Source of the DNA: Anaerolineaceae bacterium
Lineage (GTDB): Bacteria; Chloroflexota; Anaerolineae; Anaerolineales; Anaerolineaceae
Direction of reading: 5' to 3'
DNA length: 64,000 nt
NCBI GenBank assembly: GCA_016841525.1
Contig: JAENYZ010000004.1
Location: 310,001 to 374,000 of the forward strand
In this document: piece by piece, positions 32,491 through 39,051 of the stretch
How the letters are laid out: each line of letters begins with the position of its first letter
Position numbering within the stretch: the first letter of the stretch is position 1
The notes under the pieces: model-generated
Seen by the model: the letters and a program-made list of their open reading frames with translations, nothing else
The model's database searches: none
What the model was told of the DNA's origin: nothing
Position numbers and translations under genes: made by a program

Positions 32491-35400
32491 ATGTCATTTG
32501 TTCATCTTCACGTCCACTCAACCTATTCCATCTTAGATGGTTTTAGCAAGATTAAACCACTGGTTGCGCGCGCTAAAGAATTGGGCATGCCTGCAGTGGC
32601 TTTGACAGATCACGGCACCATGTTTGGTACAGTGGAATTCTTTAATGCAGCAGTGGCTGCCGGGATTAAGCCAATTATCGGTCTGGAGACCTATCTGGCA
32701 CCTCGAAAAATGACAGATCGTGAGCCGCACCGCGATAAACGAGCAGCGCATTTGCTCCTCCTGGCAGAGAACATGACCGGTTATCAAAATCTGTTAAAGA
32801 TCGCCTCAGCATCACAGCTTGAAGGCTTTTATTATCGCCCAAGGATCGACCTTGACTTTCTCAAGCAGCACAACGAAGGCTTGATTGCGACATCAGGCTG
32901 TCTTTCCGGGCAAATTCCACGCGCACTCTATAATAATGACCAGGAGCGAGCAGAGAAATATCTACGCTGGTACCTGGATGTTTTCGGGCGGGACCGATTC
33001 TTTATTGAGCTGCAGTCACATAACATCAAAGGCATGGCACAGCTCAATCAGCGCCTGGTCAACCTTGGCAAGGACCATAATGTTCAGTTTGTGGCTTCCA
33101 ATGATGTGCATTACATCAACAAAGAGGATGCCAGGCTCCAGGATATCCTATTGGCGATCCAAACGGGCAGCCTCCTGGCAGACCCGGATCGCATGCGCAT
33201 GGATGATGACAGTTATTACCTGCGCACGCCTGAGGAGATGCAATCTCTGTTCGGCAGCATACCAGGGGCTATTGAAAATTCCTTAAAGATTGCAGAAAGA
33301 TGCAATGTTGATCTGACCCCAACAGGGTATCATTTGCCCTTGTTCACCGTACCGCAGGAATTTACAACACAATCCTACTTGCGGCATCTTTGTGAAGCAG
33401 GTTTAGAGCGCATTTACGGCGAAAGCGTAAAGGAAGCACAAATCCAGGAACGCCTTGATTATGAGCTGGATGTTATCCATGACATGGGATTTGACGCTTA
33501 CTTCCTGATTGTTTGGGATTTATGCCAGCACGCAAAGGAGCGGGGCATTTGGTACAACGCTCGCGGTTCAGCCGCCGGCTCACTGGTGGCTTATGCCCTG
33601 GATATCAACCTGATTGACCCCCTTGAACACGATTTATTGTTTGAGCGTTTCCTTCAAAAGGGACGTGTTAACATGCCTGATATTGACCTGGACTTCCAGG
33701 ATGACCGCCGGGCAGAAATGATGCAGTATTGTGCAGAAAAATACGGTGAGGATAAGGTCGCCCAGATCATCACCTTTGGCACGATGGGCGCTCGCGCTGC
33801 CATACGGGATGTAGGTAGGGTAATGGATATCCCAATAGCGGAGGTGGACCGAGTTGCGAAGCTGATTCCGGCAATACCAGGAAGACCCGTCACCATTGCA
33901 GAAGTGCTGGCTGAGTCAGAAGAACTTCAGCAAATGTATAATTCTGCACCTTATTATCGAGAATTGATCGATACAGCCAGCAAAATGGAAGGCACCGTTC
34001 GGAATGCCGGTACCCATGCGGCGGGAGTGATCATTACCGATAAACCCATCGTTGAATATACACCCCTGCATCGCCCCACAAACCAATCCGATGACAACCC
34101 GGTCAACACAGTCACACAGTATGAAATGGCAATTGTTGATCACCTTGGCTTGCTCAAAGTGGACTTCTTGGGCTTGACAACATTAACCGTCATGTCCCGT
34201 GCCTGTGACCTGATTAAAGCAAGACACGGCAAAGAATATGATTTACGCTCGATCCCCATCGATGACCCGGCAGTTTTTGACTTTATCAGCCAGGGGCATA
34301 CCACCGGCATGTTCCAGCTGGAAGGCACGGGGATGACCCGTTACATCACTGAGATGAAACCGCGTGAGCTGGCACATGTGATCGCCATGATCGCACTCTA
34401 CCGCCCCGGCCCAATGCAATTCATCCCGGACTACATCGATTGTTTGCATAAGAAGAAGAAACCTAAATATCCTCATCCCTTACTGGAACCCATTTTCAAA
34501 GACACCTTTGGCATCCCAATTTACCAGGAGCAGATCATGCAGGCTGCGATGCAGCTGGCTGGGTATGAGGCAAGCGAAGCGGATAGCTTACGAAAAGCGA
34601 TTGCCAAGAAAAAAGAAAAAGCATTACAGGAACACCGAACGAAATTCATCGAAGGCGCAAAAGCCCACAGCCAGGTGAAAGAGAAGGATGCCGCCTTAAT
34701 TTTTGACGACTGGGAAGAATTTGCCCGTTACGGCTTCAATAAAAGCCACGCAGCAGATTATGGTGTCATTGCCGTCCAGACGGGATATCTAAAATACCAC
34801 TATCCCGTTGAATACATGACGGCTTTACTCTCCGCCTGGAAGAACGACACCGACAAGGTTGCAACCTATGTAGCAGATTGTCGATCTCTGGGCATTGAGG
34901 TATTACCGCCGGATGTCAACAAGAGTGGCTATGATTTCAGCATCGAGGACCGCGAAGATAAGCCCCCTGCTATTCGGTTTGGCATGGGCGCCGTCAAGAA
35001 TGTGGGAGAAAATCCGGTCAGTCTGATCCTTGAAGCACGCCAGGAGGGACCTTTCGCAGATCTCACCGATTTTGCACACCGGGTGGACCTGCAGCAAGTG
35101 GGCAGGCGAGCTCTGGAATGTTTGATCAAGGTTGGCAGTTTGGATCGCTTTGGCCCACGCCTTGTGCTGCTTCAGGAATTGGAAAGAATTATTGCCGTCA
35201 GCAGCAGCTTCTTCCGTGCTAAAGAAGCCGGGCAAATGATGTTATTTGATGCTTCAGATGCCATCAATGACAGCATCATTCTGCCCCCCACAGCTTATAC
35301 CGATAAACGTGAAGAGCTTAACTGGGAACGCGAATTAATCGGGCTTTATGTTTCTGATCATCCCCTCAGCCCATACCAGAAGATACTCAAAGAAAAAGTA

Positions 35401-36351
35401 ACCCACTTTTCCCACCAACTTGCAGAGACTGCCGACAAAGAGAAGGTGGTTGTTGCTGGAATGGTCGATCACTATCGCCAACACATGACCAAAAAGGGCA
35501 ATCACATGGGTTTTGTGACCCTGGAAGATCTTTATGGCAGGGTTGACCTGGTCATTTTCCCCAGCGTTTGGGAGCAGGTTTACCACCTGGTTGAGATCGA
35601 TAAAGTCCTTCAAGCTGAAGGGCGTATTGATGCCTCACGGGGTGACCCAAAGGTGATTGTTGATACATTAAAACGCGTCACGCAGGAGGAGCTGCGTTCT
35701 GGCAGCAGTGGATTCGGAAAGAAAAATGAAGAAACACCTCTCACAACAGATGAAGATGAATTATTGGAGGATTTTCTCCCGGATTTACCTTTTGATGAAG
35801 ATCTTACCGATGCCTTTGAACCTGAGGATCCTGGGGATTCTGAAGATGAACTATCAGAAAAAGACGAAGATCCTGAGAATATAACCTTAATAGAATCACA
35901 GCCAGAAGATAATCCTGAACCACCAATTAACGATGATCAAGCACCAGTCGATGGCAAGGGACTTGAACCGTCTGAGACCAGGGATTTGTCCGAACAAAGG
36001 CCAGGGTTCTCTACACCTAAACGACAAAATCTGAGAGGTGCTTACCACCTGTACAGTCCATCGCTTGCAAAGGCAGAGCCTTTGCCACACCCGGATCAAA
36101 AACCACGCTGCATCTACATCACCCTGAATTCATGCGGTGACAAGAATACGGATGTACGTCGATTACGCTTGTTGCACGACATTCTGGTCTCACGCCCAGG
36201 CAGGGATGCCTTTGCCTTCCGAGTGTGTGAAAATGGCTGTAAATACGAGATCGACTTTCCAAATGTCACAACGGGCTTAACCGAGCCTTTGATCCAGAAG
36301 TTGGAGGGATTAATGGGGGCGAACAATATTCAAATCACCCAGTTGACCTGA
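32491..36351 (+). CDS. dnaE: DNA polymerase III subunit alpha
   Basis: This is the replicative polymerase, 1286 residues long. The PHP domain opens the protein (HLHVHSTYSILDGFSKI). The catalytic palm shows MPDIDLDFQDDRR (about 395-407), and GTMGARAAIRDVGRV and HAADYGVIAVQT are also conserved. An OB fold lies near 1010-1050 (VVVAGMVDHYRQHM, GRVDLVIFPSVWEQV). It is longer than usual because an acidic, low-complexity stretch of about 120 residues (about 1070-1190) separates the OB fold from the C-terminal domain. PHP metal ligands look intact, so proofreading by PHP is possible. The ribosome site is weak. Confidence 0.96.
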   Translation: MSFVHLHVHSTYSILDGFSKIKPLVARAKELGMPAVALTDHGTMFGTVEFFNAAVAAGIKPIIGLETYLAPRKMTDREPHRDKRAAHLLLLAENMTGYQNLLKIASASQLEGFYYRPRIDLDFLKQHNEGLIATSGCLSGQIPRALYNNDQERAEKYLRWYLDVFGRDRFFIELQSHNIKGMAQLNQRLVNLGKDHNVQFVASNDVHYINKEDARLQDILLAIQTGSLLADPDRMRMDDDSYYLRTPEEMQSLFGSIPGAIENSLKIAERCNVDLTPTGYHLPLFTVPQEFTTQSYLRHLCEAGLERIYGESVKEAQIQERLDYELDVIHDMGFDAYFLIVWDLCQHAKERGIWYNARGSAAGSLVAYALDINLIDPLEHDLLFERFLQKGRVNMPDIDLDFQDDRRAEMMQYCAEKYGEDKVAQIITFGTMGARAAIRDVGRVMDIPIAEVDRVAKLIPAIPGRPVTIAEVLAESEELQQMYNSAPYYRELIDTASKMEGTVRNAGTHAAGVIITDKPIVEYTPLHRPTNQSDDNPVNTVTQYEMAIVDHLGLLKVDFLGLTTLTVMSRACDLIKARHGKEYDLRSIPIDDPAVFDFISQGHTTGMFQLEGTGMTRYITEMKPRELAHVIAMIALYRPGPMQFIPDYIDCLHKKKKPKYPHPLLEPIFKDTFGIPIYQEQIMQAAMQLAGYEASEADSLRKAIAKKKEKALQEHRTKFIEGAKAHSQVKEKDAALIFDDWEEFARYGFNKSHAADYGVIAVQTGYLKYHYPVEYMTALLSAWKNDTDKVATYVADCRSLGIEVLPPDVNKSGYDFSIEDREDKPPAIRFGMGAVKNVGENPVSLILEARQEGPFADLTDFAHRVDLQQVGRRALECLIKVGSLDRFGPRLVLLQELERIIAVSSSFFRAKEAGQMMLFDASDAINDSIILPPTAYTDKREELNWERELIGLYVSDHPLSPYQKILKEKVTHFSHQLAETADKEKVVVAGMVDHYRQHMTKKGNHMGFVTLEDLYGRVDLVIFPSVWEQVYHLVEIDKVLQAEGRIDASRGDPKVIVDTLKRVTQEELRSGSSGFGKKNEETPLTTDEDELLEDFLPDLPFDEDLTDAFEPEDPGDSEDELSEKDEDPENITLIESQPEDNPEPPINDDQAPVDGKGLEPSETRDLSEQRPGFSTPKRQNLRGAYHLYSPSLAKAEPLPHPDQKPRCIYITLNSCGDKNTDVRRLRLLHDILVSRPGRDAFAFRVCENGCKYEIDFPNVTTGLTEPLIQKLEGLMGANNIQITQLT

Positions 36352-36488: not shown

Positions 36489-37028
36489 ATGTCACGTATA
36501 CATATGGATATAAACCCGGTTTCTCATATTACCGTGGATGCCATTGGGCAGCCCGGCGAGCGTGTGTTTTATCTCCAGGGAGAGAATCCTGACCAGGTGG
36601 TCACATTGCTGGTCGAAAAATTTCAGATTCAAACACTCGCCCTGGCTGTTGAAAACATCATGTCGGAGCTTCGTGAGAAATCACCCGATTTACCCGAGGC
36701 ATCGCCGGACTATGTGGAAGAGAATATGACTCTTGCGCCGCCATTAGACCCATTATTCCGGGTTGGCGAATTAAGCTTGGGGTATGACCCTTCCCAGGAT
36801 TTGCTGATCTTGATCGCCAAAAAAGTGCCCCTGGAGATATCAGATTTGGATCCAGACCAATTAAGCGAGGTTCGGTTCTGGTGTACCCGATCGCAGTTGT
36901 GGGCTATGGCTCGCTGGTCCATCGAACTTGCCAGCCGAGGGCGCCCGGTTTGGCCGTCAACTGGTGAGCCCATTCTTCCTCCCGGGGAATTTTCACCCAA
37001 AAATAACGGCCACAAAACCACCCCCTGA
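36489..37028 (+). CDS. DUF3090 family protein
   Basis: The 179-residue protein matches the DUF3090/TIGR03847 pattern known from actinobacteria: an opening like VDAIGQPGERVFYLQGE, a central EENMTLAPPLDPLFRVGELSLGYD, and an end at SRGRPVWPSTGEPILPPGEF. In actinobacterial members, from memory, the C-terminal part has CPxCGxPxDPxGHxCP. Here the cysteines are replaced (WPSTG, FSPK), so any zinc site is lost. The SCO1664-family gene follows after 11 bases, the same order as in actinobacteria. Function is unknown. Confidence 0.82.
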   Translation: MSRIHMDINPVSHITVDAIGQPGERVFYLQGENPDQVVTLLVEKFQIQTLALAVENIMSELREKSPDLPEASPDYVEENMTLAPPLDPLFRVGELSLGYDPSQDLLILIAKKVPLEISDLDPDQLSEVRFWCTRSQLWAMARWSIELASRGRPVWPSTGEPILPPGEFSPKNNGHKTTP

Positions 37029-37039
37029 AAGAAAAAAGC

Positions 37040-37762
37040 ATGGACAAAGATTTAACCCTTGCCGCCCTGCGTGAGGGAGAAATGCGCCTTGAAGGGCAGT
37101 TTGTTTATGGTTCAAACTATACCTTCCTGGCAATCTGTACCTTTGCAGAACTGAAAATCAAGGCGGTTTATAAACCAATGCAGGGGGAACGACCGCTGTG
37201 GGATTTTCCACCAAATACATTGGCGCGGCGTGAGGCGGCTGCCTACAACCTCAGTGAGGCATTAGGATGGAACCTCGTACCGCCAACCGTTTTTCGATTG
37301 AGAGGGGCACCCATGGGTCCTGGTTCGGTTCAATATTTTATTGATCATGACCCAAACAAGCATTACTTGACATTTGAGCAAAAGGAAAAAGAACCATTCC
37401 AAAAGGCGGCGGCATTTGACCTGATCATCAATAACGCCGATCGCAAAGGGGGGCATTTTTTATTGGACGACCAAGGAAAACTATGGCTGATTGATCACGG
37501 CATCAGCTTTCATGTAGAAGATAAACTGCGAACCGTTCTTTGGGACTACGCAGGTCAGGAAATTCCACAAAAGATCTTGGAAGATGTTCATGCAATAATC
37601 CGCTCCTTATCCCCAGAAAATAAATTGTATCAAACCTTGCAGCCGCATTTACTGGCGCAAGAGATTCAAGCGCTCAAAACTAGGTCTGAGGAACTTGTAA
37701 AAAACGGCGTTTTCCCTTTGCCGCCTGAAGAACGGCGAGCCTATCCCTGGCCCTTGGTATAA
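37040..37762 (+). CDS. SCO1664-family protein, PI3/4-kinase-like fold
   Basis: The 240-residue protein matches the SCO1664 family (TIGR03843). The N-terminal nucleotide-binding part includes IKAVYKPMQGERPLWDFP with the likely ATP-binding Lys, and LARREAAAYNLSEALGW. The catalytic and metal part is INNADRKGGHFLLD and LWLIDHGISFH, analogous to the DRxxxN and DxG motifs of PI3/4-kinase-like enzymes. The substrate is unknown. In actinobacteria it sits with DUF3090 and often near mshC, but no mycothiol gene is seen here. hutI follows after 11 bases. Confidence 0.85.
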   Translation: MDKDLTLAALREGEMRLEGQFVYGSNYTFLAICTFAELKIKAVYKPMQGERPLWDFPPNTLARREAAAYNLSEALGWNLVPPTVFRLRGAPMGPGSVQYFIDHDPNKHYLTFEQKEKEPFQKAAAFDLIINNADRKGGHFLLDDQGKLWLIDHGISFHVEDKLRTVLWDYAGQEIPQKILEDVHAIIRSLSPENKLYQTLQPHLLAQEIQALKTRSEELVKNGVFPLPPEERRAYPWPLV

Positions 37763-37773
37763 TTGGTGAACGC

Positions 37774-39051
37774 ATGAATAATAAAACACAAAACAATTTC
37801 ATTTTGCATAATGCATCGCAGCTCCTCACCCTGGCGGGTGGTCCCCAGCGTGGGAATCGTTTAGGGGAATTGAGCATCCTTGAAAATACAGCTGTTGCAG
37901 TCAGGGATGGCGTCATCATCGCCATTGGTGAATTTTGGGATTTACAAAGAGACTTTCCTTCCTTTTCAAAACTTGATGCTGAGGGGTATGTGGTGATGCC
38001 CGGATTTGTAGACCCCCATACGCACATGGTATGGGCGGGGGATCGAGCCGGTGAATTTGACCTGCGATTGCAAGGTAAATCCTACATGGAGATCTTGAAT
38101 GCAGGTGGGGGGATCATATCGACCGTTCGGGCAACGAGGGAAGCATCTCTTGAAGACCTCATCAACCAGACCCGAAGGCGTGCCCAACTGGCATTTTCTC
38201 ACGGCACGACAACCATGGAAGTAAAAACTGGGTATGGCCTAACCTTCGAATCCGAGCTTAAACAACTTCAAGCAGTTCTCAATCTCAATGAAGAAGGTCC
38301 CTTAGAACTCCTCCCCACCTTCATGGGAGCGCATGCGGTGCCGCCAGAATATAAGGGAAGAACTGACGCATATGTTTCACTGGTCTGCGATGAAATGATC
38401 CCAGCCCTTTACCAATGGTTGCAGGACCATTATCCACAGCGTGCACTGCCCTTTGTAGATGTATTTTGCGAAAAGAGGGTTTTTGACCTGGATCAGTCTC
38501 GCCGAATTTTAATGACAGCAAAGAAATTCGGGTTCCCTTTGAAGATCCACGTCGATGAATTTGAAAGCTTGGGTGGGGCACAATTGGCTGCAGAATTGGG
38601 CGCTGTTTCAGCGGATCACCTTGTAAAAACGCTGCCTGAGGATATTGAAGCCCTTTCAAAATCAAACACGGTGGCGGTTTCGCTGCCCGGCACCCCTTTT
38701 GGGTTGAACGAAGATGATTACACACCTGCAAAAGCACTCATCGAAAAAGATGCAATTTTGGCACTGGCGACGGATATCAACCCTGGGACAAGCTGGTGTG
38801 AATCAATGCAGTTCATCCTTGCCTTAGCCTGCCGGAAATTAAATCTGACGCCTGCCCAGGTGATCGCTGCCGGGACGATCAATGCTGCAGCAGCATTAGG
38901 TCAGCAGCAACAGATTGGCTCAATTGAGATTGGTAAGCAAGCTGACCTGCTCATATTAGACGTGGATGACTATCGGCATCTTGGGTACCGTTTCGGCATC
39001 AATCTTGTATCCACTGTTATTAAGCAGGGCATTGTTTACTCGGTTAAGTGA
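37774..39051 (+). CDS. hutI: Imidazolonepropionase
   Basis: This amidohydrolase opens imidazolone-propionate to N-formimino-glutamate, the third step of histidine breakdown. The metal-binding PHTHMVWAGDR, the stretch SHGTTTMEVKTGYGL, the ligand His in FPLKIHVDEF, SADHLVKTL and the catalytic Asp in LATDINPGTSWCESM are all present. At 425 residues it has the family length. No other hut gene lies in the window, so histidine use cannot be concluded from this segment alone. Confidence 0.95.
   Translation: MNNKTQNNFILHNASQLLTLAGGPQRGNRLGELSILENTAVAVRDGVIIAIGEFWDLQRDFPSFSKLDAEGYVVMPGFVDPHTHMVWAGDRAGEFDLRLQGKSYMEILNAGGGIISTVRATREASLEDLINQTRRRAQLAFSHGTTTMEVKTGYGLTFESELKQLQAVLNLNEEGPLELLPTFMGAHAVPPEYKGRTDAYVSLVCDEMIPALYQWLQDHYPQRALPFVDVFCEKRVFDLDQSRRILMTAKKFGFPLKIHVDEFESLGGAQLAAELGAVSADHLVKTLPEDIEALSKSNTVAVSLPGTPFGLNEDDYTPAKALIEKDAILALATDINPGTSWCESMQFILALACRKLNLTPAQVIAAGTINAAAALGQQQQIGSIEIGKQADLLILDVDDYRHLGYRFGINLVSTVIKQGIVYSVK

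Follow-up and report, generated by a model that had tools for sequence, protein, structure and literature searches.

In the genus Brevefilum, the DUF3090 protein appears to have exchanged the putative zinc knuckle of its relatives for a metal-free C-terminal tail, which is under extreme purifying selection and represents a functional remodelling rather than a decay. The gene lies beside one for an atypical kinase of the SCO1664 family, and the unit to which both belong is not a pair but a trio of kinase, DUF3090 protein and histidine phosphatase, widespread in two large phyla.

The DUF3090 gene is located at 36489..37028 (+ strand) of the window, which is the whole 64,000-nucleotide stretch of DNA analysed here, and encodes 179 residues, comprising a two-repeat alpha/beta body (residues 1–150) and the C-terminal tail (residues 151–179). 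After a gap of 11 nt, and on the same strand, comes the gene for the kinase (37040..37762, +; 240 residues). A sequence-only reading of this DNA had assigned both ORFs to these families, and profile searches confirm the assignment along with the coordinates and the strand. The first ORF matches PF11290 over residues 9–166 with 119.7 bits (1.6e-34), above the Pfam gathering threshold of 27, and aligns over its full length with the narrower model TIGR03847 at 110.8 bits, below the curated cut-off of 117.25. The second matches TIGR03843, the model of the SCO1664 family, over its full length with 271.9 bits (4.5e-81), above the curated cut-off of 172.4, and scores marginally over the gathering threshold of PF00454, the PI3/PI4-kinase family (28 vs. 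27.1 bits). These profile scores rule out chance or misannotation as the source of the pair. The same reading had called the pair a good candidate for an undescribed enzyme-partner system; this does not hold for the families, both of which are catalogued already, although no functional study of the SCO1664 kinase or of DUF3090 was found in the literature searched.

The kinase of the window is 90% identical to that of another locus of the genus Brevefilum, in the Chloroflexota (L214). Its gene has two candidate starts, 37040 and 37082; the ATG at 37082 has a stronger Shine-Dalgarno-like sequence, and the homologues favour the longer form. Downstream, hutI (imidazolonepropionase; 37774..39051, +; TIGR01224, 462.7 bits) follows the kinase after 11 nt. 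The same succession holds throughout the genus, as if the genes formed one operon: each of the 13 other Brevefilum-genus loci has hutI behind the pair, a position that it does not occupy in the remaining families of the sample. Upstream of DUF3090 lies a gene (32491..36351, +) that we take, from its sequence, to be dnaE-like, and which is common to the loci of Brevefilum and of the genera g5 and g196, as well as to the zinc-type relatives L202 and L203.

The motif of the DUF3090 family has been described as CxxC..HxC (PMC9425974). In 201 DUF3090 copies read by a uniform procedure, the tail signature C-x-x-C...C is present in 168 and absent from 33. The latter comprise the copies of 14 Brevefilum-genus genomes, three of which occur a second time under public names, those of five g5 genomes, a single one from g196, and ten copies from another group of Anaerolineae. 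The cysteines are kept in nearly all other Chloroflexota and in all 28 Actinomycetota copies (28 loci, including two plasmid-collection records; for this phylum the motif also rests on PMC9425974). Zinc binding by these relatives is a property that we infer from the motif alone. The zinc-type relatives of families f1 and f2 hold C, C, H, and C at the four aligned tail positions in 38/38 cases, which bears out the CPxCG...CP that the earlier reading had named, whereas in each of the 14 Brevefilum-genus genomes found with DUF3090 the usual C-P-x-C-G...H-x-C has become W-P-S-T-G...E-F-S. The window protein is thus not a member of the group with the CxxC..HxC motif. Its ligand positions are occupied by W155 (36951..36953, +), at the first cysteine, which is Trp in 14/14 genomes and Cys in 38/38 near relatives; T158 (36960..36962, +), at the second cysteine; E167 (36987..36989, +), at the histidine, with Glu in 13/14 genomes and Gln in 1/14; and S169 (36993..36995, +), at the third cysteine. 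The quoted motifs WPSTG...FSPK, ADRKGGH, and LIDHG are all present, while the exchange of His for Glu at the fourth ligand position had been missed. The whole tail, GRPVWPSTGEPILPPGEFSPKNNGHKTTP (36939..37025, +), replaces the knuckle without a gap, and 28 of its 29 residues are invariant in the 14 genomes; likewise, the segment GRPVWPSTGEPILPPGEFSPKNNGHK and its counterpart in the zinc-type locus L064 are of equal length and align without a gap. As far as aligned sequences can tell, the loss of the metal site in Brevefilum is real. A single DUF3090 copy was found in the window genome, and a C-plus paralogue was not found there.

The codons of this tail (151–179) exhibit a pS of 0.72 and a pN of 0.005 in the 14 Brevefilum-genus genomes, that is, a pN/pS of 0.007, compared to a pS of 0.73, a pN of 0.165, and a pN/pS of 0.226 for the body of the same protein, and to tail values of 0.056–0.275 in the zinc-type groups. 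Synonymous sites are near saturation and almost every codon varies synonymously, yet the sole amino-acid change is the Glu to Gln replacement in one genome. When five neighbouring genes are scanned in 29-codon windows, none has a pN as low as that of the tail (0.0053, compared to 0.0154 for the lowest window of DnaE, some copies of which are partial, 0.040 for that of an HD protein, 0.065 for HutI, and 0.106 for the kinase). Being frozen, and the slowest-changing stretch in its neighbourhood, it argues for functional remodelling instead of decay. The proposal that the metal ligands are lost and the pair kept stands, but not the notion of a site that has merely vanished. Searches with the tail gave no second copy in its own genome beyond one chance-level match (E 0.08), and no resembling structure among the solved ones. 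The frozen 29-residue peptide could serve as a bait for its target.

Loss of the knuckle was not a single event. On the main tree, built from the DUF3090 body and the kinase with the tail omitted, the distribution of zinc-less tails requires two changes, each imposed by well-supported branches, and a topology that groups all zinc-less rows is rejected (p-AU 4.9e-5), which rules out a single origin of these forms. On a tree of DUF3090 only, L189 (genus g196) falls beside Brevefilum and L326 (G288) represents a third origin, so that at least three changes are forced. According to these trees and alignments, there were at least three losses of the knuckle, one through substitution and two through deletion. 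Low-scoring Chloroflexota matches exist beyond those listed, and further losses may therefore exist. A survey of the cysteine motif, as the earlier reading had suggested, supports the loss in Brevefilum but not a general feature of the Chloroflexota: the loss is confined to a small number of clades and arose independently three times or more.

The deleted-knuckle Anaerolineae clade (L236, L240, L242, L243, L249, L256, L258, L268, L274, and L292) holds the pattern GR..DPKQNGR..YYWT, as in the GRADPKQNGR of L240, a pattern also found in L325; the order phosphatase-DUF3090-kinase is kept in all ten named loci. L326 reads SGRVQHSKNGH, and its kinase gene lies approximately 1.1 Mb away on the same contig. 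The WPS...FSP tail of L189 (G358, a genome 69% complete) belongs to a DUF3090 gene with no adjoining kinase, followed by a gene that we presume, from its sequence, to be homoserine-dehydrogenase-like. Residues E43, K44, Q46, G151, R152, and N173 of DUF3090 are invariant in 79 diverse homologues, zinc-less ones among them. It is the surroundings of the knuckle, with their flanking G-R and N-G, that are universal, and not the knuckle itself. Repeated losses of the presumed metal site amount to a natural mutagenesis experiment that points away from metal catalysis and indicates these six invariant positions as the working residues of DUF3090.

The kinase, for its part, has its catalytic residues in place. 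K45, E65, D134 (in NNADRKGGH), and D152 (in IDHG) are invariant in 79 homologues, making kinase activity plausible, and its AlphaFold model (pLDDT 96.7) retrieves with Foldseek PI4KIIalpha (5.3e-8) and Fam20A (3.9e-7), with Fam20C and CtkA also among the best solved matches. The PI3/4-kinase-like motifs that had been noticed are thus matched by fold and by catalytic residues, and the SCO1664 protein is a plausible candidate for an active kinase. Only one clade-specific change is observed in Brevefilum, the replacement of the penultimate Pro by Leu, and no compensating kinase changes common to the two main zinc-less clades were found. The near absence of matching changes in the kinase, together with its much faster evolution (lowest 29-codon window pN 0.106), argues against the frozen tail being mainly a surface for docking the kinase and suggests that it contacts another target, either instead of the kinase or in addition to it.

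The pair, which the sequence-only reading had pointed out as lying outside actinobacteria, is common across the Chloroflexota, and its occurrence there is not remarkable. Among the matches listed for 301 Chloroflexota genomes, sampled evenly over the phylum, DUF3090 is present in 197 and the kinase in 166; 157 genomes hold both, 40 hold DUF3090 alone, nine the kinase alone, and 95 neither (Fisher 1.5e-34, a p-value inflated by shared ancestry and synteny). The partnership is consequently not obligatory. Genomes with DUF3090 and no detectable kinase (such as G021, G040, G068, G084, and G196) are concentrated in families f19, f28, and f46, and those of their DUF3090 copies that were read keep the cysteines, while kinase-only genomes are concentrated in family f16. 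Lack of DUF3090 is observed in at least 14 genomes of genus g3, and G203 holds the pair in two copies. The pairs of L134–L142 and L101 (families f31 and f39) nest inside Actinomycetota on the tree with a branch support of 98, which suggests a transfer between phyla.

The proposed pairing, although backed by this co-occurrence, was incomplete. The gene order of the window, DUF3090 and then SCO1664, is indeed that of actinobacteria, but in Tsukamurella it is a histidine phosphatase, DUF3090, and SCO1664 that are consecutive, with mshC further on. Of 80 named loci from both phyla, 57 have a TIGR03848-like phosphatase close to DUF3090, almost without exception immediately before it; these include all 10 named loci with a deleted knuckle, and many further Chloroflexota loci have the phosphatase nearby as well. 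In the sample of 301 genomes, the kinase accompanies strong phosphatase matches in 66/70 (Fisher 6.6e-16, again inflated by relatedness). The unit is therefore the trio of kinase, DUF3090, and phosphatase. In the window genome the phosphatase is not adjacent to the pair, as it is in many other Chloroflexota; its TIGR03848 homologue is encoded on another contig (G000:C9:450134) and reaches 193.6 bits (E 4e-57), slightly below the model cut-off of 203.85. One Tsukamurella record, L213 (NZ_LR134462.1), is called plasmid 20; it carries mshC, metH, and dapA, and is thus probably a chromosomal fragment.

Several explanations of the zinc-less tail and of the module can be weighed against these data. 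A metal site decaying under relaxed selection on its way to gene loss would be in agreement with genus g5 of the same zinc-less clade, whose tail pN/pS of 0.52 is no lower than that of its body and where decay may hold, and with two near-complete genomes of the window's family (G168 and G283) in which DUF3090, kinase, and strong phosphatase are all absent. For Brevefilum, however, decay is contradicted and ruled out by the codon analysis, which places the tail far below both its own body and the zinc-type tails, making this explanation scarcely credible. Genome-wide zinc sparing, in which zinc sites would be replaced in many proteins where zinc is scarce in sulfidic digesters, has a precedent in other bacteria, which are known to respond with ribosomal-protein paralogues that need no zinc. 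It would also suit Brevefilum as a member of the Anaerolineaceae abundant in anaerobic digesters (PMC5481317); nevertheless, the CxxC pairs of L31 are kept in three Brevefilum-genus genomes other than that of the window, and those of S14 in the window genome and two others, so that zinc sparing is unsupported in the two proteins read and seems very improbable. A role in mycothiol or inositol-phosphate metabolism is suggested by the position of the genes beside mshC in actinomycetes, as SCO1664 is reported to be linked to mshC without exception in actinobacteria (PMC4255298) and mshC is found near the trio in Tsukamurella and other Actinomycetota. However, the Chloroflexota pairs examined have no true mshC nearby: the mshC-like genes near the f4 loci match MshC at only 35–37% and have the length of ordinary CysS. 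In the window genome no MshC scores above the cut-off (337 vs. 485 bits), the best match being probably an ordinary CysS; the link is unsupported there, the actinomycete connection to mycothiol does not carry over, and such a role appears improbable.

The two remaining alternatives concern the partner of the tail. The AlphaFold model of DUF3090 (mean pLDDT 88.7, mostly above 90 in the body, with a low confidence of 50–65 in the tail) shows a body of two similar beta-beta-beta-alpha halves, which align weakly, profile to profile (E 0.0008 local, 0.015 global). Its best Foldseek match is Pur-alpha I-II (prob 0.80, E 0.02). DUF3090 could accordingly be a PUR-type binder of nucleic acids, or of the ribosome or RNA polymerase, whose tail touches a near-invariant macromolecule in a contact regulated by kinase and phosphatase, and the far higher conservation of the tail than of the kinase would fit a conserved target other than the kinase. 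The structural match is nonetheless weak (TM 0.32, rmsd 13.8) and falls short of significance at 0.001, and this proposal is regarded as possible, albeit doubtful. It is less probable, and on balance unlikely, that the neighbouring kinase, encoded only 11 nt downstream, came to phosphorylate the Brevefilum tail. The tail gained five Ser/Thr residues (S157, T158, S169, T177, and T178) that are invariant in the 14 genomes, zinc-type tails having none or few; but its Pro and Gly residues are equally invariant, no consensus site is known for the SCO1664 kinase, and such residues are absent from the zinc-less deletion clade.

The preferred explanation, to which we give an even chance, is that DUF3090, the SCO1664 kinase, and the TIGR03848 histidine phosphatase would constitute one module of reversible phosphorylation. 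The SCO1664 protein would be catalytically active, as an atypical kinase of the PI4KII/Fam20/HipA type, and DUF3090 would be its non-catalytic partner, either adaptor or substrate, in which a G-R-[hairpin]-N-G tail follows the two-repeat body. Where present, zinc would be a dispensable structural clip that closes the hairpin and takes no part in catalysis; the survival of the gene through three or more losses of the knuckle, together with the invariance of G151, R152, and N173, argues for such a structural rather than catalytic role. In the Brevefilum lineage, the ligands C, C, H, and C would have given way to W, T, E, and S at the same positions, the hairpin being stabilised without metal, and the whole tail would then have become almost immutable through contact with a very conserved target. 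A more specific proposal, offered tentatively and with somewhat less than even confidence, is that the knuckle was converted position for position, without indels, into a metal-free peptide with a new essential binding or regulatory role, such as docking the adjoining kinase, accepting phosphate from it, or touching a core machine. If true, this new role would explain why the tail is conserved more rigidly than its zinc-bearing ancestors.

Compared to known systems, the trio is also present in mycobacteria, where Rv2134c and MSMEG_4192 are presumably the DUF3090 genes and Rv2135c presumably the TIGR03848 histidine phosphatase. Among them, MSMEG_4192 has appeared in a fitness screen with dibucaine (PMC10127668) and Rv2134c in one with rifampicin (PMC11329110), in both cases without follow-up. 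The Brevefilum protein shares with the DUF3090/TIGR03847 proteins of Actinomycetota the body, the G-R...N-G frame, and the position before the SCO1664 gene, but, unlike these and most Chloroflexota DUF3090 proteins, which hold CxxC..HxC (PMC9425974), it holds W, T, E, and S and scores below the TIGR03847 cut-off. The phosphatase gene, which immediately precedes DUF3090 in many Actinomycetota and Chloroflexota, lies elsewhere in the Brevefilum genome. The kinase is a typical member of SCO1664/TIGR03843, with a full-length match, the invariant K, E, D, and D, and a single clade-specific site that differs. It resembles type II PI4K and Fam20 (4hnd, 5wrr) and CtkA (3akk) in its predicted fold, with Foldseek E-values as low as 5e-8, and in the K/D/D frame of its catalytic residues, and differs from them as a minimal protein of 240 residues with DRKxxH and at most approximately 20% identity. 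PI kinases carry DRxxxN in place of this DRKxxH. Finally, ribosomal zinc-ribbon proteins exist in C-minus (zinc-free) variants, and DUF3090 is similar to them in that other residues have taken over the positions of the zinc ligands in a protein that is itself retained; unlike in those proteins, a single DUF3090 copy was found in the genome, and the replaced segment is more, not less, conserved.
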